Below are positions 32,289 through 41,571 of a stretch of 64,000 bases of DNA, piece after piece. Position 1 is the first letter of the stretch, and each line of letters begins with the position of its first letter. The position numbers and the translations under genes were made by a program. Source of the DNA: Candidatus Rokuibacteriota bacterium (GTDB lineage: Bacteria; Methylomirabilota; Methylomirabilia; Rokubacteriales; CSP1-6); NCBI GenBank assembly GCA_016188005.1, contig JACPIQ010000028.1, forward strand, positions 1-64,000, read 5' to 3'. The notes below the pieces were generated by a model. It saw nothing but the letters and a program-made list of their open reading frames with translations. It was not told the DNA's origin and did no database searches.

Positions 32289-32772
32289 GCCGTGGGAGGG
32301 GCTCGCGTACCGCACGCTCCCCGGCACGGACACGCAGGCCCGGGAGCTGTTCGGGTTCGTCGGCGCGTGGGCCCCGCCGCGGACGGCCGTGGAAACGGGC
32401 TGGGCGGCCTGGGACGGGTCGACGATGGTGGCGGCCGTCCTGCTGGAGCGGGCCGGGAGCTCGGCGATTCTCCACGGCCCGGTGGTCGTGGCCCCCGCCG
32501 CCTTCGAGCCCGACGACGCCCTCGAGACCGCCGTGCGCCTCGTGGCCAGCGCGCTGGAGCATGCCCAGGGCCACGGGATCGAGACCGTCTTCGCCCGCCC
32601 GCAGGGGCTCGATCGGGTCTGGGTGCGTGCGGGCTTCATCCCCGTCCCCGAGGTTTCGCTCCCCGAGGGACTCCGGGGAAGGCCGGGACTGGGCCTCTTC
32701 GCCTGGCGGGGCGGGAGCGCCCTCTGGAGCGCCGCCGGCCGAGGCGCCGCGCGGGAGTCCCGCTCCGGCTGA
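32275..32772 (+). CDS. Unknown protein in the F420 cluster, possibly GNAT-like
   Basis: 165 residues if it starts at TTG 32275; no ATG or GTG is suitably placed. The text (WAAWDGSTMVAAVLLERAGS, ETAVRLVASALEHAQGHGIE, RVWVRAGFIPVPEVSLP) has the strand-helix feel of an acetyltransferase fold, but no acetyl-CoA loop is evident. It ends one base before cofD, so it is probably co-expressed with it. I do not recognise the family. Confidence 0.6.
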   Translation: MARSRPWEGLAYRTLPGTDTQARELFGFVGAWAPPRTAVETGWAAWDGSTMVAAVLLERAGSSAILHGPVVVAPAAFEPDDALETAVRLVASALEHAQGHGIETVFARPQGLDRVWVRAGFIPVPEVSLPEGLRGRPGLGLFAWRGGSALWSAAGRGAARESRSG

Positions 32773-32773
32773 C

Positions 32774-33700
32774 ATGAAGACCGCCGTGCTGGCCGGCGGG
32801 ACGGGCGCCGCCAAGCTCCTGCGGGGACTGGCGCGGCTCGTGGACCCCGCGGATTTGACCATCATCGGCAACACCGGGGACGACCTGCGTCTCTGGGGCC
32901 TGCACATCTCGCCCGACCTCGACACGGTCTGCTACACCTTGGCCGGCGTGGTGGATCCCGCCCGGGGCTGGGGACGCCGCGGGGAGACCTTCCACGCCCT
33001 CGAGGCGATGGGGCGATTCGGCGAGCCGACATGGTTCAGCCTCGGGGACCGCGATCTGGCGACGCATCTCCACCGGACGCGCCTCCTGGCGGAGGGCCGG
33101 ACGCTCACCGAGGCCACGGCCGCCGTCGCGGCGATGCTCGGGGTCGCCCAGCGCGTGCTCCCCATGTCCGACCAGCCTGTCCGCACGCGGCTGCTCGGTC
33201 CCGAGGGCTGGCTCGACTTCCAGGAGTACTTCGTGCGGGACAAGGCGCAGGTCGCCGTCAGCGCCGTCCGTTACGAGGGAGCCGCGTCCGCTGTGCCGGC
33301 GCCCGGCGTGGTGGACGCGATCCTCGAGGCCCGGGCCGTCATCGTGTGCCCCTCGAACCCCATCACCTCGGTCGGGCCGATCCTGGCGGTGCCGGGACTG
33401 GCGCGCGCGCTGGGAGAGAGTCGGGCCACGGTGCTGGCCGTGAGCCCCCTCGTCGGAGGGGAGGCGGTGTCCGGACCGGCCGCGCGCCTCATGGCGGCGT
33501 GCGGGCTGCCGGTCTCCGCCGTCGGCCTCGCCGGGGCGTACGCCCCGTGGCTCGACACGCTGATCGTCGATGACCGGGACGCCGCGCTGGCCGCGGACCT
33601 CGAGGCCGGCGGCGTGGGCGTGGTCGTCACCGACACGCTGATGACGAGCCCTGAGAAGGAGACGGCGCTGGCCCGCCGTCTCCTGGAGGCCGTGCCGTGA
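32774..33700 (+). CDS. cofD: 2-phospho-L-lactate (or PEP) transferase CofD
   Basis: 308 residues from ATG 32774. Opening AVLAGGTGAAKLLRGLARL, then TIIGNTGDDLRLWGLHISPDLDTV and CPSNPITSVGPILAVPG, diagnostic for CofD/FbiA. It transfers the phospho-lactyl/enolpyruvyl group from the GDP-activated donor onto F0. It overlaps cofC by four bases. Confidence 0.96.
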   Translation: MKTAVLAGGTGAAKLLRGLARLVDPADLTIIGNTGDDLRLWGLHISPDLDTVCYTLAGVVDPARGWGRRGETFHALEAMGRFGEPTWFSLGDRDLATHLHRTRLLAEGRTLTEATAAVAAMLGVAQRVLPMSDQPVRTRLLGPEGWLDFQEYFVRDKAQVAVSAVRYEGAASAVPAPGVVDAILEARAVIVCPSNPITSVGPILAVPGLARALGESRATVLAVSPLVGGEAVSGPAARLMAACGLPVSAVGLAGAYAPWLDTLIVDDRDAALAADLEAGGVGVVVTDTLMTSPEKETALARRLLEAVP

Positions 33701-34374
33701 GTGGTCGGGCTCCGGCGCCGACGCTGGTCGCCGTGCCGGTGAAAGACCTGGACAACGCCAAGCAGCGGCTGATCCCCCTGCTCGAGCCCGCCGAGCGGCG
33801 AGCGCTGGCGGCCGCCATGCTCGAGGACGTCCTGGCCGCCCTCGTCGCGGCCGGGCTCGGGCCTGTCTGCGTCGTCACCAAGGACGAGGCGGTGATGGCC
33901 CTGGCCGACCGGCAGGGGATCAGGTGCCTCGTGGAGAGCGCCAACCGCGGACACACCGAGGCCGTGGGGCTGGCTCAGCGGGAAGCGGTCTGGCGGGGGG
34001 TGGCGCGGTTTCTGACTATTCCGGGAGACGTGCCCTGCGTGACGCGCGCAGAGCTCGAGCGGCTCTGCGCCACCCTCGGCGCCGGGCCCGGGGTCGCCTT
34101 CGTCCCCTCGCTGTCGGGCTTCGGCACCAACGCCGCGTTGCTCTCTCCCCCGGCCGCCATGCCTCTCAAGTTCGGCGAACCCTCCTTCGAGAATCACCTG
34201 GAAACGGCACGGGCGCGCGGGCTCTCGCCCGTCGTGCTGCCACTGCCCGGGATCGGGCTCGACATCGACGCCCCCGAGGACCTGGGGCTCCTGCTGGAGC
34301 GCGGCTCCGCGACGCGCAGCGGAAGACTGGTGCGCGCGTGGGACATCCCGCGCCGCCTCGCGAGCCTCGGCTAG
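33697..34374 (+). CDS. cofC: Phospholactate/PEP guanylyltransferase CofC
   Basis: 225 residues from GTG 33697. It has the nucleotidyltransferase fold: VAVPVKDLDNAKQRL, LTIPGDVPCVTRAEL, SLSGFGTNAALLSPP and GLDIDAPEDL. It activates the three-carbon acid with GTP for CofD. Which acid it uses (phospholactate, PEP or 3-phosphoglycerate) cannot be told by eye. It overlaps both neighbours. Confidence 0.93.
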   Translation: MSGRAPAPTLVAVPVKDLDNAKQRLIPLLEPAERRALAAAMLEDVLAALVAAGLGPVCVVTKDEAVMALADRQGIRCLVESANRGHTEAVGLAQREAVWRGVARFLTIPGDVPCVTRAELERLCATLGAGPGVAFVPSLSGFGTNAALLSPPAAMPLKFGEPSFENHLETARARGLSPVVLPLPGIGLDIDAPEDLGLLLERGSATRSGRLVRAWDIPRRLASLG

Positions 34375-35126
34375 TGCCGCCCCGCTACGAGGTGATCGGC
34401 GTCGAGGGCTTGCCGGAGATCGCCGCAGGCCACGATCTCGGCCGGCTCATCGCCGAGGCCGCCGCGCGCCAGGGCACGCCGCTCGAGGCGGCCGACCTCC
34501 TGGTGGTGAGCCAGAAGATCGTGTCGAAGGCCGAGGGGCGCCTCGTGCGGCTCGCCGAGGTGACGCCGTCACCGCAGGCCCTGGCCATGGCGCGCGAGCT
34601 GGGGAGAGACCCCCGCCTGATCGAGGTGATCCTCGGCGAGAGCCGGCGCGTGGTGCGCCACGACAAGGGCGTCCTCATCGTGGAGACCCATCACGGATGG
34701 GTGTGCGCGAACGCCGGGGTGGACCAGTCCAACGTCGACGCCGACACGGCCTGCCTGCTCCCGGTGGACGCCGACGCCTCGGCGCGGGGGCTGCAGGAGC
34801 GGCTCGCGGCGCTGACGGGCCACGCGCTGGCCATCATCATCGCCGACACCTTCGGCCGGCCCTGGCGCGAGGGCCTCACCAACGTGGCCGTCGGCGTCGC
34901 CGGCTTCGACCCGCTCGTGAGCTATCTGGGCGAGCGGGATCCGGCGGGACACGTGCTGCAGGCCACGGTCCTCGCCCTCGCCGACGAGCTGGCGGGAGCC
35001 GCCGAGCCGGTGATGGGCAAGCTGGCGCGCATCCCGGTGGCGATCGTCCGGGGCCTGGTCTGGGAGCCCGCCGCCGGCTCGAGCCGGGCGCTCCTCCGCG
35101 ACCCGGACCGAGACCTCTTCCGCTAG
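34374..35126 (+). CDS. cofE: F420-0:gamma-glutamyl ligase CofE
   Basis: 250 residues from GTG 34374; its first base is the last base of the cofC stop (TAGTG). Typical text: LLVVSQKIVSKAEGR, ETHHGWVCANAGVDQSNVD and IIIADTFGRPWREG. It adds the poly-glutamate tail. It lacks the C-terminal nitroreductase half of actinobacterial FbiB, so it cannot itself reduce dehydro-F420. Confidence 0.95.
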   Translation: MPPRYEVIGVEGLPEIAAGHDLGRLIAEAAARQGTPLEAADLLVVSQKIVSKAEGRLVRLAEVTPSPQALAMARELGRDPRLIEVILGESRRVVRHDKGVLIVETHHGWVCANAGVDQSNVDADTACLLPVDADASARGLQERLAALTGHALAIIIADTFGRPWREGLTNVAVGVAGFDPLVSYLGERDPAGHVLQATVLALADELAGAAEPVMGKLARIPVAIVRGLVWEPAAGSSRALLRDPDRDLFR

Positions 35127-35216
35127 TGTCCTGGTTGAGAGCTCGAGAGACCAAGCGCCGGCCGGGACAGGGCCCCACCCGGCGCTGCTCGTCGACGAAC
35201 TTCCGAGACAGGACAC
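35126..35216. repeat. 91-bp nested inverted-repeat element between cofE and npdG
   Basis: The outer arms GTGTCCTG (35126-35133) and CAGGACAC (35209-35216) are perfect 8-bp inverted repeats. Inside them GCGCCGG (35155-35161) and CCGGCGC (35179-35185) form a second stem. The left outer arm starts within the cofE stop. It may be a miniature insertion or a hairpin that separates expression of cofE and npdG. Confidence 0.5.
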
Positions 35217-35235
35217 ACCAGGGAGAGCCAGACCC

Positions 35236-35901
35236 GTGAGACTCGCGATCCTCGGAGGCACAGGCAAGGAAGGGGCGGGGCTCGGGCTCCGCTGGGCGCA
35301 GGCAGGTCACGAGATCATCATCGGCTCGCGCGACGCGCGCCGGGCGGCGGACAAGGCCGGCGAGCTCGCAGCGCAGGCGCCGGCGGCGCGCGTCCAGGGG
35401 CTGTCCAACCGCGACGCCGCGACGGCAGCCGAGGTCATCGTGCTCGCGCTGCCGGCGGCGGGGCTCCAGCAGACGCTGCCCGAGGTCAGGGACGGGTGCC
35501 GCGGCAAGGTGGTCGTCAGCGCGGTCGTGCCGCTCACCTTCGGTGGAGGACGGCTCTTCACGCCGCCGCCGCAGGGCTCCGCCGCCGAGGAAGCGCAGGA
35601 GATCCTGGGCGCCGAGGCCCGGGTCGTGGCGGCGTTCCACCACATCGCGGCCCACGAGCTGTCGGCGGCCGGTCACGCCATCGACTGCGATCTCCTCCTC
35701 TGCGGCGGGGACACCGCGGCGCGGACGACCGTCGCGGGGCTCGGCGCCGACCTGGGCCTGCGCGCCGTCGACGTGGGCGCGCTGACCAACGCCGGGCCGC
35801 TCGAGGGAATCACGGCGGTGCTCGCCACGATCAACCGCCGCTACAAGCTCAAGGGATCGGGCATCAAGATCACTGGGCTCGGAGAGGCCCATGGCCGATA
35901 G
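35236..35901 (+). CDS. npdG: NADPH-dependent F420 reductase
   Basis: 221 residues from GTG 35236 (GGGAGAG site upstream). The Rossmann NADP motif is AILGGTGKEGAGLGLRWAQAG with IIIGSR after it; F420/active-site text follows in VVSAVVPLTFGGGRLF and VAAFHHIAAHEL. It passes hydride between NADPH and F420. It follows the biosynthesis genes and overlaps the dehydrogenase gene by 11 bases. Confidence 0.93.
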   Translation: MRLAILGGTGKEGAGLGLRWAQAGHEIIIGSRDARRAADKAGELAAQAPAARVQGLSNRDAATAAEVIVLALPAAGLQQTLPEVRDGCRGKVVVSAVVPLTFGGGRLFTPPPQGSAAEEAQEILGAEARVVAAFHHIAAHELSAAGHAIDCDLLLCGGDTAARTTVAGLGADLGLRAVDVGALTNAGPLEGITAVLATINRRYKLKGSGIKITGLGEAHGR

Positions 35902-36985: not shown

Positions 36986-37891
36986 TCACCCGCGGCCGGC
37001 CTGATCGTGCCCCGCGGCGCGCTTGAGCGCGTACAGTGCGCGGTCGGCCTCGGCCATCAGCTCGTCGACGCTGGACGCGCGCCGGAGATCCAGCACGGCA
37101 ACCCCCGCGGTGACGGAGACCTCGTAGGCCAGCTGCGCCCGCTCGCTGTGCGCGCGGACCCGCTCCGCGAGCCGGGCGCGGAGCAGCTCCGCGCTGGCGT
37201 CCGGCGCCTCGACGGCGAGCACCGCGAACTCGTCGCCGCCCACGCGAGCCACGATGTCGGTCTCCCGGAACGTGGAGCGCAGGACCTGAGCCACCGCCAC
37301 CAGCGCGCGATCGCCCTCGGCATGACCGAAGCGGTCGTTGACGCGCTTGAAGCCGTCCACGTCCGCGAACACGAGGAGGGCACCCCGCCCGTTGCGCCGG
37401 GCCAGCTTCAGGTGCTGCTCGGCGAGGGTCACGAAGCCGCGCCGATTGTACAGCCCCGTGAGCTCGTCCCGCAGCGCGAGGCTTCTGAGGATCTCCTGCA
37501 GGTGTTGCCGCGCGATGGCGTGCCGGATGGCGCGCGCCAGCACCCGGCCGTCGGCCTCTCCCTTGACGAGGTAGTCCTGCGCACCGGCGCGCACCGCATC
37601 CTCCCCCAGGGCCTCGCTGTCCGAGGCCGTGATCACGATGACGGGCACCTCGGGAGCGCAGGCACGCAGCGGGGGGATCCCGGCGAGCCCCGCGCTGTCG
37701 GGCAGGGAGAGATCGAGGAGCACGATGTCGAAGCGCTGCGCGCCAAGACGCTCGAGCCCCTCCTGGAGCCGTTCCACGTGGACCACCGCGTAGCGTCCGC
37801 GATCCCGCTGCTCGAGGGTGCGGGTCACGATCAGGGCGTGGTCGGGGTTGTCCTCGATCAGCAGGATCCGCGTGCGGGACTCCGCGTTCAC
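36986..37891 (-). CDS. Receiver-GGDEF diguanylate cyclase
   Basis: 301 residues from GTG 37891. The receiver has LLIEDNPDH, Asp in IVLLDLSLPDSAG and Lys in YLVKGEADG. The GGDEF domain carries an intact GGDEF and the RETD inhibition site exactly five residues earlier, so it should make c-di-GMP under product feedback. The frame remains open upstream but only this part is coding. It is convergent with the Ldh2 gene. Confidence 0.93.
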   Translation of the reverse strand: MNAESRTRILLIEDNPDHALIVTRTLEQRDRGRYAVVHVERLQEGLERLGAQRFDIVLLDLSLPDSAGLAGIPPLRACAPEVPVIVITASDSEALGEDAVRAGAQDYLVKGEADGRVLARAIRHAIARQHLQEILRSLALRDELTGLYNRRGFVTLAEQHLKLARRNGRGALLVFADVDGFKRVNDRFGHAEGDRALVAVAQVLRSTFRETDIVARVGGDEFAVLAVEAPDASAELLRARLAERVRAHSERAQLAYEVSVTAGVAVLDLRRASSVDELMAEADRALYALKRAAGHDQAGRG

Positions 37892-37977
37892 GCCCCCTCC
37901 CCTGTCAAGCCTGCGGCCGCTGCGCCACCACGCCGGCGGCATCGGGGAGGCTGTCGAAGAGCACGGGGCGCATGCGG

Positions 37978-39162
37978 TCAGCGGGGGGCCGGCGCGGCGA
38001 GAGCGCGGAGCCGGGCGACGATGGGAGGGAGGCGGTCGAGCACGGCATCGACGTCGGCCGCCGTGCTCCAGCGACCCAGGGTGAAGCAGAGCGAGCCCTC
38101 CGCCTCCTCGGGCGTGCAGCCGATGGCGCGAAGCACGTGGGAGGGGTTGCCCGTGAGCGACGCGCAGGCCGAGCCCGACGAGGCGGCAACGCCCGAGAGA
38201 TCGAGGTCCAGCAGCACGCCGTCGGCCTTGACCCCGCGCAGCGCCAGGCTCAGGTGATGCGGCAGGCGCGTCTCCCTCGCGCCCGTCACGCGGCAGTCGG
38301 GCACCGCGGCCAGCACCCCCTCCAGCAGCCGGTCGCGCAGCGCGCCCAGCCGCGCCGCGTCCCCGTGGTTTCCGTCGGTCCGGATGAGCTCGGCCGCAAC
38401 CCCGAGCCCCACGAGGGCCGGCAGGTTCTCCGTGCCGGAGCGGTAGCCGCCTTCCTGCCCCCCCCCGAGGATCTGGGGTGCGAGCTTGACGCCCGGCCTG
38501 ACCCACAGGGCGCCCGTCCCCGGCGGGCCGTAGATGTCGTTGCCGCCGAGCGTGAGGAGGTCGATCCCCATGGCCTCCGCCGCCAGCGCGACACGCCCCG
38601 CGGCCCCCACGGCATCCACGTGGAGCGGGACGGCGGCCGCCCGCGTGACCCGGGCCAGCTCCCCCACGGGCTGGACGGTGCCAATCTCCTCGTTGGCGGC
38701 GCCGATGGAGACCAGCACAGTGTCCGGCCGGAGCGCGCGCCGGAGCTCGGCCGGGTCCACCAGCCCCTCCCGATCCACCGGGAGCAGGGTCACCGCCACG
38801 CCGTGCTTTTCCAGCGCGCGGCAGGCATTGAGCACGGACACGTGCTCGACGGCGGTTGTGACGACGTGCCGGCCTCGGGCGCCCGCACGGAGCGCAACGC
38901 CCAGGATGGCGAGGTTGTTCGCCTCGGTGGCGCCGGAGCTGAAGATCACCCCGCTCGCCGTCCCACCGATGAGCCGGCCGACCTTGGCGCGGGCGGCTTC
39001 CAGAGACTCGCGCGCCTCCGCGCCCAGGGAATGCCGGGCTGAGGGATTCCCGATGCCGGCCTCGAGGAAAGGGCGCATCACGGCGAGTACGCGCGGATCG
39101 ACAGGCGCGAAGCCCCCGTAGTCCAGGTACACCCGGTCGGGGGGGGCGCCGCCGCGGGCCAT
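37978..39162 (-). CDS. IscS/NifS-like protein lacking the PLP lysine
   Basis: 394 residues of the cysteine desulfurase fold. Kept are the ring-stacking His (TAVEHVSVL, H107), RSGTEN, and the catalytic-loop Cys (SSGSACASL, C333). The Schiff-base Lys site, usually SxHKxYGPKG, reads GGNDIYGPPG, with Asp at 209. The PLP-contacting Gln of HVDAVQ is Gly (G186), and DYNATTP is DYGGFAP. A. fulgidus IscS is known to carry Asp at this Lys position. It probably cannot act as a normal desulfurase; a sulfur- or cluster-scaffold role is possible. It is four bases after tusA. Confidence 0.88.
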   Translation of the reverse strand: MARGGAPPDRVYLDYGGFAPVDPRVLAVMRPFLEAGIGNPSARHSLGAEARESLEAARAKVGRLIGGTASGVIFSSGATEANNLAILGVALRAGARGRHVVTTAVEHVSVLNACRALEKHGVAVTLLPVDREGLVDPAELRRALRPDTVLVSIGAANEEIGTVQPVGELARVTRAAAVPLHVDAVGAAGRVALAAEAMGIDLLTLGGNDIYGPPGTGALWVRPGVKLAPQILGGGQEGGYRSGTENLPALVGLGVAAELIRTDGNHGDAARLGALRDRLLEGVLAAVPDCRVTGARETRLPHHLSLALRGVKADGVLLDLDLSGVAASSGSACASLTGNPSHVLRAIGCTPEEAEGSLCFTLGRWSTAADVDAVLDRLPPIVARLRALAAPAPR

Positions 39163-39166
39163 GGCG

Positions 39167-39418
39167 CTACCGGGTCTTCCGGACGAGGAAACGGTAGATC
39201 GCCCCCTCCCGCGAGACCTCGAGCAACTCGTGCCCCGAGCGCTGGGCCCAGGTCTTCATGTCCGGATCGGAGCCGGGGTCGTCGGAGAGCATCTCGAGCA
39301 CTTCCCCCACCGCCAGCTCGCGGAGCGCCTCCCGGGTCTTGACGATTGGCATGGGGCAGAAGAGGCCGATGCAGTCGATGTGCTTGACAGGATTGACGGC
39401 TTTGGAGCTCTGCGTCAT
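39167..39418 (-). CDS. tusA: TusA/SirA-family sulfur carrier
   Basis: 83 residues from ATG 39418. The motif IDCIGLFCPMPIVKTRE holds the sulfur-carrying Cys of CPxP (C21) and an extra Cys at 16. The C-terminal strand IYRFLVRKTR is normal. TusA proteins accept persulfide from cysteine desulfurases for tRNA thiolation, cofactors or sulfur oxidation. Its partner gene immediately downstream is the lysine-less IscS-like protein. Confidence 0.92.
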   Translation of the reverse strand: MTQSSKAVNPVKHIDCIGLFCPMPIVKTREALRELAVGEVLEMLSDDPGSDPDMKTWAQRSGHELLEVSREGAIYRFLVRKTR

Positions 39419-39560: not shown

Positions 39561-40583
39561 ATGCGCGACGCTGGCCTGGCCCACGGAAAGCGAATGATGG
39601 CCACTGAGCAAGGTAGCCCCCCGCGCCAGCGCCGGGTCAAGGCCTGGGGTGCGGCGGTGCCGGCCGGGGCCGCGATCGTGCTTCTCGTTGCGCTGACCTA
39701 CGCCCTCGAAGCCTTCGTGCGCCCCACGCTCGGCGCCGGCGACCCGGGCGTCATGCTGCTGTGGATCCAGTCGGCGCTGATCGCGGCGGCGCTGCTGACC
39801 GCCGTCTCCTGGGTGGTGGCGGCCGGAGTCGGCCGGGCTGCCGCGCGGCGCCCGGCGGAGAGCCCGGCCGCCGCGCTCCCGCCCGCGCCGCCCGGGGGCG
39901 AGCGGCGGGACGACATCGGGTCGCTGATGGGCGCCTTCTCCCGGATGCTCACCACCGTCGAGGAGCAGGCCAACGAGATCCACCACTTCGCGGAGCGGCT
40001 CGACCGCGCGTACAAGGAAGTGGAGTCCACCAACGCCCGGCTCAAAGAGTTCTCCTTCAAGGACGAGGTGACGGGGCTCTACAACCGGCGCTTCTTCGCG
40101 ATCCGCATCGAGGAGGAGGTGTCCCGCTACCGGCGCTTCAACCACCCGGCCTCCGTGGTCCTGCTGGATCTCGACGACTTCAAGGCGGTGAACGACGAGC
40201 TGGGGCACGCCGCGGGCGACCAGACGCTCCGGGAGATGGCCGATATCCTCATGAAGTACTCGCGCGGGATCAACGTGATCTGCCGCTACGGAGGGGACGA
40301 GTTCGCTGTGCTCCTGGTGGAGACCTCCAAGGCCGGCGCCCTCCTGTACGCCGACCGGATCCGCCAGGTGCTCGGCACCTACGCCTTCGCCCACGGCCGG
40401 CGGCTCACGGCGAGCTTCGGCATCGCCTCGTTGCCGGAAGACGTGACGCCCACGGGAGACGACCTGATCCGCGCCGCCGACGAGGCCCTCTACGCCGCCA
40501 AGCGGGCGGGCAAGAACCGGGTCTCCCTCTACGAGGACCTGGCGCCGGATGCGCGGCCCGCCTCCGAGGCGCGCGTGCCATGA
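39561..40583 (+). CDS. Membrane-anchored diguanylate cyclase
   Basis: 340 residues from ATG 39561 (Met at 39597 also possible). Two helices span about residues 30-50 and 64-90. A HAMP-like/coiled-coil stretch follows (MGAFSRMLTTVEEQANEIHH), then a GGDEF domain with RYGGDEFAVLL. The inhibition site is absent: the RxxD position reads RGIN, so feedback control is unlikely. Its stop overlaps the start of the HD-GYP regulator (ATGA), pairing c-di-GMP synthesis with breakdown. Confidence 0.92.
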   Translation: MRDAGLAHGKRMMATEQGSPPRQRRVKAWGAAVPAGAAIVLLVALTYALEAFVRPTLGAGDPGVMLLWIQSALIAAALLTAVSWVVAAGVGRAAARRPAESPAAALPPAPPGGERRDDIGSLMGAFSRMLTTVEEQANEIHHFAERLDRAYKEVESTNARLKEFSFKDEVTGLYNRRFFAIRIEEEVSRYRRFNHPASVVLLDLDDFKAVNDELGHAAGDQTLREMADILMKYSRGINVICRYGGDEFAVLLVETSKAGALLYADRIRQVLGTYAFAHGRRLTASFGIASLPEDVTPTGDDLIRAADEALYAAKRAGKNRVSLYEDLAPDARPASEARVP

Positions 40584-41571
40584 TCCAGAACCTCGCCGAC
40601 CGGCGGGTCCTCATCGTTGACGACGACCGGCAGGTGCGACGGGTCCTGAGCGAGTTCTTCGCCGTCAACGGGTACAAGTGCCACACCGCGGGCAACGGCC
40701 AGGAGGGCCTGGCCGCCTTTGAAGCCGAGCGGCCGCCGCTCACCGTGACCGATGTGAACATGCCCGTGATGGGGGGGCTCGAGCTCCTCAAGCAGGCCCG
40801 GGCCCTGGACCCGGACGCGGCCATCCTCATGCTCACCGGCGTGGCCGACGTGGAGACCGCCGTCGAGAGCCTCAAGCACGGCGCCTACGACTTCATCCTC
40901 AAGCCGGTGAACATGGACGAGATCCTGATCGCCGCCGAGCGCGCCCTCGAGCACCGCCAGCTCCTCCTCGAGCGCCGCGACTACCAGGCGCTCCTGGAGC
41001 GGCGCGTGGGCGAGGCCACGCGGGACCTGGCCGCCACGCTCCGGGAGCTGGAGAACACCTACCGGAGCACGCTCGAGGCGCTGGGCTCCGCCATCGACAC
41101 CCGGGATCTGGGCACCCAGGCCCACTCCTGGAGCACGGCGTGCTGCTGCACGACATCGGCAAGATCGGCATCCCCGACGCCATCCTGCTCAAGCGGGGGC
41201 CCCTCACCCCGGCCGAGTGGCAGATCATGCGGACGCACCCCGCCGTGGGCCGGAACCTGGTCAGCAAGATCCCCTTCCTGCGCGGGGCGGTGCCGGTGGT
41301 CTACCACCACCACGAGCACTGGGACGGCTCGGGCTACCCGCTCGGACTCAAGGGGGACGCCATCCCCGTCGGGGCCCGCATCTTCGCCGTGGCCGACGCC
41401 TTCGACGCCATGACCTTCGACCGGCCCTACTCCCGCGCCATCCCCCTGGAGGCCGCCCGGGCCGAGATCCAGCGCTCCGCCGGCACCCACTTCGACCCGG
41501 GCGTGATCGAGAGCTTCCTGCGGGTGCCGCTCGAGATACTGGAGGAGATCCGCCGCCGCTCCACTGACTAG
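40580..41571 (+). pseudogene. Receiver-HD-GYP phosphodiesterase with internal deletion and frameshift
   Basis: Starts at ATG 40580. The receiver domain (VLIVDDDRQVRRVLSEFF, Asp in LTVTDVNMP) and the linker are intact, and the HD-GYP domain begins (STLEALGSAIDTRDLGTQAHS). At about 41131 the sequence jumps in another frame to LEHGVLLHDIGKIGIPD and continues to HHEHWDGSGYP and the TAG at 41571. The ~25-35 residue helical stretch normally between AHS and LLHDIGK is missing. Both halves are well conserved, so the break is recent or an assembly error. Confidence 0.85.
41554..41571. repeat. Left copy of 18-bp direct repeat bounding the broken-gene patch
   Basis: CGCCGCTCCACTGACTAG forms the last codons and stop of the HD-GYP gene. 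It recurs with one mismatch at 43653-43670, where the bases before it (GGGAGATCG) also resemble those here (GGAGATCC). The 2.1 kb between the copies contains only broken genes. Confidence 0.55.

Follow-up and report, generated by a model that had tools for sequence, protein, structure and literature searches.

An IscS-like protein without the PLP lysine or the substrate arginine is paired with TusA in Rokubacteria and belongs to a clade linked to sulfur-carrier genes

What might an IscS-like protein do when the residues that make a persulfide are gone, but the cysteine that carries one is kept? This question is raised by two adjacent genes, tusA and iscS*, in the window, by which we mean the whole 64,000-nucleotide stretch analyzed here (Candidatus Rokuibacteriota bacterium, GenBank assembly GCA_016188005.1, contig JACPIQ010000028.1, positions 1 to 64,000). 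Both genes are on the minus strand, as are all of the codons whose window positions are given below.

The window encodes an IscS-like protein directly downstream of TusA

The first gene of the pair, tusA (positions 39167 to 39418), encodes an 83-amino acid sulfur carrier that matches PF01206 (E = 1.5e-24; 86.1 bits versus a cut-off of 28.6) and contains the CPxP cysteine, Cys21 (positions 39356 to 39358; Cys19 in E. coli), although its score against the NCBIfam TusA equivalog model is below the cut-off (56.4 versus 78). A gap of 4 nt separates the tusA stop codon from the ATG of iscS* (positions 37978 to 39162), so the placement of a TusA gene immediately upstream by an earlier sequence-only reading is correct. 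The iscS* gene is a 394-amino acid IscS/NifS-like ORF without a PLP lysine or a substrate arginine; its product matches PF00266 (Pfam Aminotran_5, E = 2.3e-64) and has an AlphaFold model with a pLDDT of 88.4. This protein scores below the NCBIfam equivalog cut-offs for NifS (408.6 versus 530.75) and IscS (335.7 versus 643.2), and it also failed that for DndA. A terminator scan of the tusA-iscS* locus gave no match, and the sole promoter-like site found in a promoter scan of the locus was on the opposite strand.

Residues for persulfide formation are replaced in iscS*, and the loop cysteine is kept

When iscS* was aligned to E. coli IscS as the reference, five active-site residues were found to be replaced. 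The His-Lys site at which PLP forms a Schiff base (the phosphate-binding H205 and K206) is occupied by Asn208-Asp209 (positions 38536 to 38541), the substrate/PLP glutamine Q183 by Gly186 (38605 to 38607), the substrate-carboxylate asparagine N155 by Glu158 (38689 to 38691), and the substrate-carboxylate arginine R354 (R379 in SufS) by Cys359 (38086 to 38088). Kept are H104, D180, T76, and T243 (His107, Asp183, Thr79, and Thr244, respectively) and the persulfide loop cysteine C328, which is Cys333 in the SGSAC motif (38164 to 38166) and is present in every IscS-like sequence scored. The translation bears out the three PLP-side changes that had been read from the sequence alone, namely Lys to Asp209 (N208-D209-IYGP), Gln to Gly186 (VDAVG186), and NATT to GGFA (LDYGGFAP, residues 13–20), together with the retained SGSAC333 and RSGTEN (residues 241–246) motifs. 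The replacements by Cys359, Glu158, and Asn208 go beyond what had been noticed at that time.

We take E. coli R354 to be the substrate-Arg position from our own alignment and general knowledge of the SufS C-terminal motif. All three of the group I cysteine desulfurase (IscS/NifS) residues that hold the substrate carboxylate are absent from iscS*, as is the PLP lysine, with no Lys at this position in any of 35 orthologs; the SGSAC loop cysteine of this group is present. The authors of the DndA structure describe the Asn, Gln, and Arg in question as stringently conserved in cysteine desulfurases and treat DndA Arg353 and CsdB Arg379 as equivalent (PMC3343029). A substitute lysine near the PLP site was also considered and rejected, as the lysines conserved in Rokubacteria are only at residues 60, 119, 226, and 312, none of which aligns with a known PLP-binding position.

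As judged from the alignment, these losses remove the Schiff base, part of the phosphate binding, and the substrate clamp, and the sulfur-carrying residue stays. The loss appears selective because the proteins that have lost the PLP and substrate residues still conserve the loop Cys. It is very unlikely that iscS* is a cysteine desulfurase. With His107, Asp183, and Thr79 still present in the PLP pocket, PLP or another ligand may yet bind, and one could speculate that Cys359, which in Rokubacteria lies where the substrate would have bound, is a second sulfur-holding thiol.

The pair is fixed in Rokubacteria

A protein search covered 60 relatives and the window's own genome, 39 of these genomes belonging to the window's order (Rokubacteria). 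Within the order, 35 orthologs with about 60–100% identity were found (genomes G003, G025, G031, and G036 are without one, and the copy in G010 is split across two frames). All 35 have Asn-Asp at the His-Lys site and tusA immediately upstream, the TusA cysteine is invariant (35/35), and 33 of the 34 scorable sequences have Cys at the substrate-Arg position. Values of dN/dS were 0.14–0.24 for iscS* and 0.18–0.42 for tusA, showing that both genes are under purifying selection. Close homologs with Lys, which the earlier reading would have taken as the sign of a sequence error, were not seen, and the 35 concordant orthologs and the dN/dS of iscS* effectively rule out an error or a decaying pseudogene. 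In other orders of the same class, all matches were only 44–49% identical, and the five that were read bear Lys. GTDB records named as Candidatus Rokubacteria also carry the locus. In Rokubacterial loci, no dsrE or iscU was seen next to the tusA-iscS* pair.

Other IscS-type genes in the same genome and order

The earlier reading had proposed a check for a canonical IscS elsewhere in the genome, and a canonical, Lys-bearing IscS/NifS is indeed encoded there (C86:78279-79430). The genome also contains a probable SufS-type paralog (C68:7442-8551) adjoining a NifU_N gene, and three NifU_N genes lie away from the pair.

An isc operon is present as well, in which an IscS gene (C86:84504-85664) is followed by iscU, iscA, hscB, and hscA. 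In all 19 sequences from the window's family, this isc-operon IscS carries Leu or Met in place of the PLP Lys and Gln in place of the stacking His, with the Arg and loop Cys retained; the Lys is present in two genomes of other families of the order. By sequence comparison, this is a second, independent loss of Lys in Rokubacteria. Because Asn-Asp is constant in Rokubacterial iscS*, whereas Leu or Met is at the Lys site of the isc-operon IscS in these genomes, the alignment suggests that the ND site was reshaped for a use rather than merely lost. At C75:74000-92500 in the window's genome, several DsrE/TusA genes adjoin two dsrA/B-like genes; this region probably serves dissimilatory sulfur metabolism and is distinct from the tusA-iscS* pair.

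Acidic-site proteins are encoded with tusA, dsrE, and iscU in archaea and other bacteria

A search of GTDB genomes with the degenerate pattern NDxYGPxGxGA identified at least 119 loci. The matches listed include archaea (Bathyarchaeota, Methanobacteriota in NCBI's sense, Promethearchaeota, Thermoplasmatota, and Hadarchaeota) and bacteria (Actinomycetota, Thermodesulfobacteriota, Nitrospinota, Cloacimonadota, and others). Among the non-Rokubacterial ND loci in these listed matches, tusA is upstream in 71 of the 82 with enough flank (within 1.3 kb, same strand), dsrE is upstream in 48 of the 82 with enough flank, and iscU is just downstream in 72 of 89. The middle gene of this cassette, of ∼120 amino acids, encodes DsrE (PF02635, 5.6e-20 and 2e-11). 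Three cysteines in IscU, one in DsrE (52/52), and the TusA Cys are conserved among the matches listed, and the substrate Arg is absent from all scorable acidic-site proteins.

Judged by sequence and gene order, the tusA-iscS* pair represents, in Rokubacteria, a more widespread tusA-(dsrE)-iscS*-iscU cassette of archaea and other bacteria, which makes Fe-S assembly on IscU a likely ancestral destination. The sequence-only reading had proposed a possibly undescribed TusA-IscS module and a test of whether ND homologs are linked to tusA; this link holds in Rokubacteria and elsewhere, and the proposed module was too narrow.

Since the search pattern itself fixes ND, pattern-free searches were also run as a control of the ND-tusA link. 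A search of 26 of the same genomes with a NifS model found tusA upstream of 11/11 ND genes versus 0/16 HK genes (Fisher 8e-8, kinship ignored), and a protein search around one Bathyarchaeal genome found it in 6/7 ND versus 3/15 HK cases. The link is therefore not something that the pattern itself produced. No tusA or dsrE was found upstream of the HK, HL, or HM IscS genes examined in Rokubacteria and class relatives. Across all of the loci collected here that have at least 700 bases upstream, tusA adjoins none of the 72 Arg-bearing versus 116 of the 135 Arg-less IscS-like loci (kinship ignored).

An exclusive ND-tusA rule is broken by three Lys-bearing Bathyarchaeal IscS proteins (L278, L280, and L281) that are encoded in a dsrE-tusA-iscS-iscU cassette and have Leu at the Arg site and Asp at the Gln site. 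From their sequences, these Lys-kept, Arg-lost proteins are apparently an independent case. The YK-type proteins (L279, L282, L283, and L284) also lack the Arg, and no tusA is upstream of them. In a tree that included archaeal Lys-bearing sequences, all ND, NE, and QD proteins were on one side of a branch with an SH-aLRT of 99, and the Rokubacterial branch was long, with a support of 100; in an earlier, smaller tree, the HK and HL proteins were together on one side (support 98). As judged from the tree, the tusA counts appear to take in two or more separate cases.

Comparison with known systems

The solved structure nearest to iscS* is Archaeoglobus fulgidus IscS (PDB 4eb5, 4eb7, and 4hvk; D199K mutant 4r5f), by sequence (374.9 bits) and by fold (top matches 4r5f, 4hvk, and 4eb5), with 46% identity in the fold alignment. 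The likeness to this protein that was noted in the earlier reading extends beyond the Asp at the Lys site, as A. fulgidus IscS has Asn-Asp at the His-Lys site, keeps the loop Cys, and has lost the substrate Arg (Leu there). With its Asn-Asp, iscS* falls in the ND/NE/QD clade of the tree; A. fulgidus IscS is placed in this clade by alignment and fold, not by the tree. The Rokubacterial protein differs in its fixed Cys at the substrate-Arg position and its changed substrate Asn, and its gene has no adjacent iscU, whereas A. fulgidus IscS was solved in complex with IscU.

Already known (PMC7585200) are the Asp of A. fulgidus IscS, its reported lack of desulfurase activity, and the role of its loop Cys as an Fe-S cluster ligand, not a sulfur donor; the Asp and the cluster-holding Cys had been noted in the earlier reading. 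The same paper describes Methanosarcina acetivorans IscS1 (MA0808) as a protein without the catalytic Lys, encoded in a cluster with iscU1 and four further genes whose functions are unknown; its likeness to iscS* in having no catalytic Lys is by this description, not by sequence, and tusA and dsrE are unnamed among its neighbors in that description. In the open-licence literature, we found no report that ties the acidic-site clade to tusA and dsrE or that notes the loss of the Arg. What appears new from the sequences analyzed here is that the substrate Arg is missing from acidic-site proteins and that tusA tracks its loss.

The E. coli IscS-TusA complex (PDB 3lvj) has the same fold and the same two partners as iscS* and TusA. 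Rokubacterial TusA conserves Cys19, Asp45, Asp51, and mostly Arg27 of E. coli TusA; Arg55 of E. coli IscS is conserved in iscS*, and the Asp52 position is acidic in almost all Rokubacteria. Other E. coli TusA-contact residues are partly lost, with Trp45 absent and Glu49 variable. In E. coli, IscS generates the persulfide from cysteine and TusA receives it (PMC2854127), whereas in iscS* the persulfide-making residues are gone. The MIS minimal system (MisS-MisU), described with a cysteine desulfurase (PMC12192291), resembles the wider cassette as an IscS-like and IscU-like pair of archaea and bacteria. The iscS* loci differ from it in the missing catalytic residues and the presence of tusA or dsrE; in place of a desulfurase and scaffold, the Rokubacterial locus has neither a catalytic Lys nor an iscU.

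A proposed sulfur relay and its alternatives

We propose, with a probability of roughly 0.55, that iscS* is a pseudo-desulfurase to which TusA (or DsrE) delivers sulfur and which hands it over in turn, to IscU if one is present. Such a protein would have the IscS fold, with the cysteine-splitting chemistry lost and the mobile loop cysteine serving as a persulfide way-station. TusA would bring in the sulfur as a persulfide (a task for TusA and/or DsrE in other lineages), and the sulfur would move to Cys333 and then go to a recipient, which would be the adjacent IscU in most archaeal and bacterial versions and, in Rokubacteria, an IscU encoded elsewhere or another acceptor. The flow of sulfur between IscS and TusA would be reversed relative to E. 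coli. An Fe-S ligand role as in A. fulgidus would be compatible with this relay and may coexist with it.

We infer that the persulfide is accepted, not made, because the maker residues are lost, the carrier Cys is kept, and the neighboring genes encode sulfur carriers and a scaffold. This relay is supported by the replacement of five E. coli IscS residues (Lys206, His205, Gln183, Asn155, and Arg354), by the grouping of acidic-site proteins in one clade (SH-aLRT 99), by the link of tusA to ND (11/11 versus 0/16 HK) and to Arg-less loci, the three Lys-bearing Bathyarchaeal ones included, by the tusA, dsrE, and iscU genes that adjoin non-Rokubacterial ND loci with their cysteines conserved, and by the reported inactivity of A. 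fulgidus IscS, which is of the same type (PMC7585200). Counted against it are the role of the A. fulgidus loop Cys as an Fe-S ligand rather than a sulfur donor, a Rokubacterial operon without iscU and dsrE, the retained PLP-pocket residues His107, Asp183, and Thr79, the E. coli TusA-contact residues that are not kept, and the phylogenetic non-independence of the gene-adjacency counts. The sequence-only reading, that the pair may carry or receive sulfur without being a desulfurase, is supported as to the second part, given the residues lost; the carriage of sulfur and its direction we put forward conditionally.

A broader version, which we hold tentatively and at somewhat less than even odds, is that a widespread PLP-free TusA-(DsrE)-pseudoIscS-IscU relay feeds Fe-S assembly from inorganic or carrier-bound sulfur, not cysteine, with the fold disarmed at least twice and perhaps another acceptor in Rokubacteria. 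A. fulgidus IscS, until now an odd case whose reported inactivity was without a physiological frame, becomes a member of a clade that spans archaea and several bacterial phyla and is jointly marked by sulfur-carrier genes and by the absence of both the catalytic Lys and the substrate Arg. This clade offers a testable candidate for a route by which anaerobes might load sulfur onto IscU with no cysteine desulfurase involved, and many genes annotated as "cysteine desulfurase" probably do not encode such enzymes.

The A. fulgidus data also bear on the leading alternative, an unlikely one in our estimate, in which iscS* is a cluster-assembly platform whose loop Cys holds a nascent Fe-S cluster on IscU, with sulfur passing from TusA to IscU directly or sulfide being used. 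The solved structures nearest to iscS* are complexes of A. fulgidus IscS with IscU, the Cys there is reported to ligate the cluster and supply no sulfur (PMC7585200), and iscU is downstream in 72 of the 89 non-Rokubacterial loci among the matches listed, all in keeping with a platform; the Rokubacterial gene, with no iscU beside it and tusA always there, instead points to TusA as the obligatory partner. It is improbable that iscS* has remained a PLP enzyme that binds PLP non-covalently and acts on another substrate or by another reaction: the stacking His, the pyridine-nitrogen Asp, and a phosphate Thr are invariant, and Asn-Asp is fixed with no drift, suggesting that the site has a use, but the Lys, the phosphate-binding His, and all three substrate-carboxylate residues are lost. 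Slightly less probable again is a regulatory role as a decoy, in which iscS* would tie up TusA (or IscU) and so restrict the sulfur coming from real desulfurases. This would fit the catalytic loss with fold and partner linkage conserved and the lysine-bearing paralog in the window's genome, but would not need an invariant loop Cys and sits poorly with the 5 of 26 (incomplete) genomes in which no strong IscS/NifS-type match other than the ND protein was found.

Additional observations

Outside Rokubacteria, a Cloacimonadota genome (G078, locus L247) encodes an IscS in which Leu replaces the PLP Lys, with iscU adjacent to its gene. Downstream of one ND IscS gene (L110:4497-5906), a single open frame covers an IscU domain and a thioredoxin-reductase-like FAD domain, a possible fusion as judged from the sequence. 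Apparent fusions of TusA to long N-terminal domains in some relatives were rejected as an open-frame artifact of high-GC DNA, opposite a divergent GGDEF gene. This GGDEF gene, divergent from tusA, is kept in most Rokubacterial relatives; in the window, GGDEF- and HD-GYP-like signaling genes, identified by eye, flank the pair (36986–37900 and 39561–41571). Also by eye, a gene run at window positions 32561–35901 resembles F420 synthesis (cofD, cofC, and cofE) together with an F420-dependent NADP reductase.
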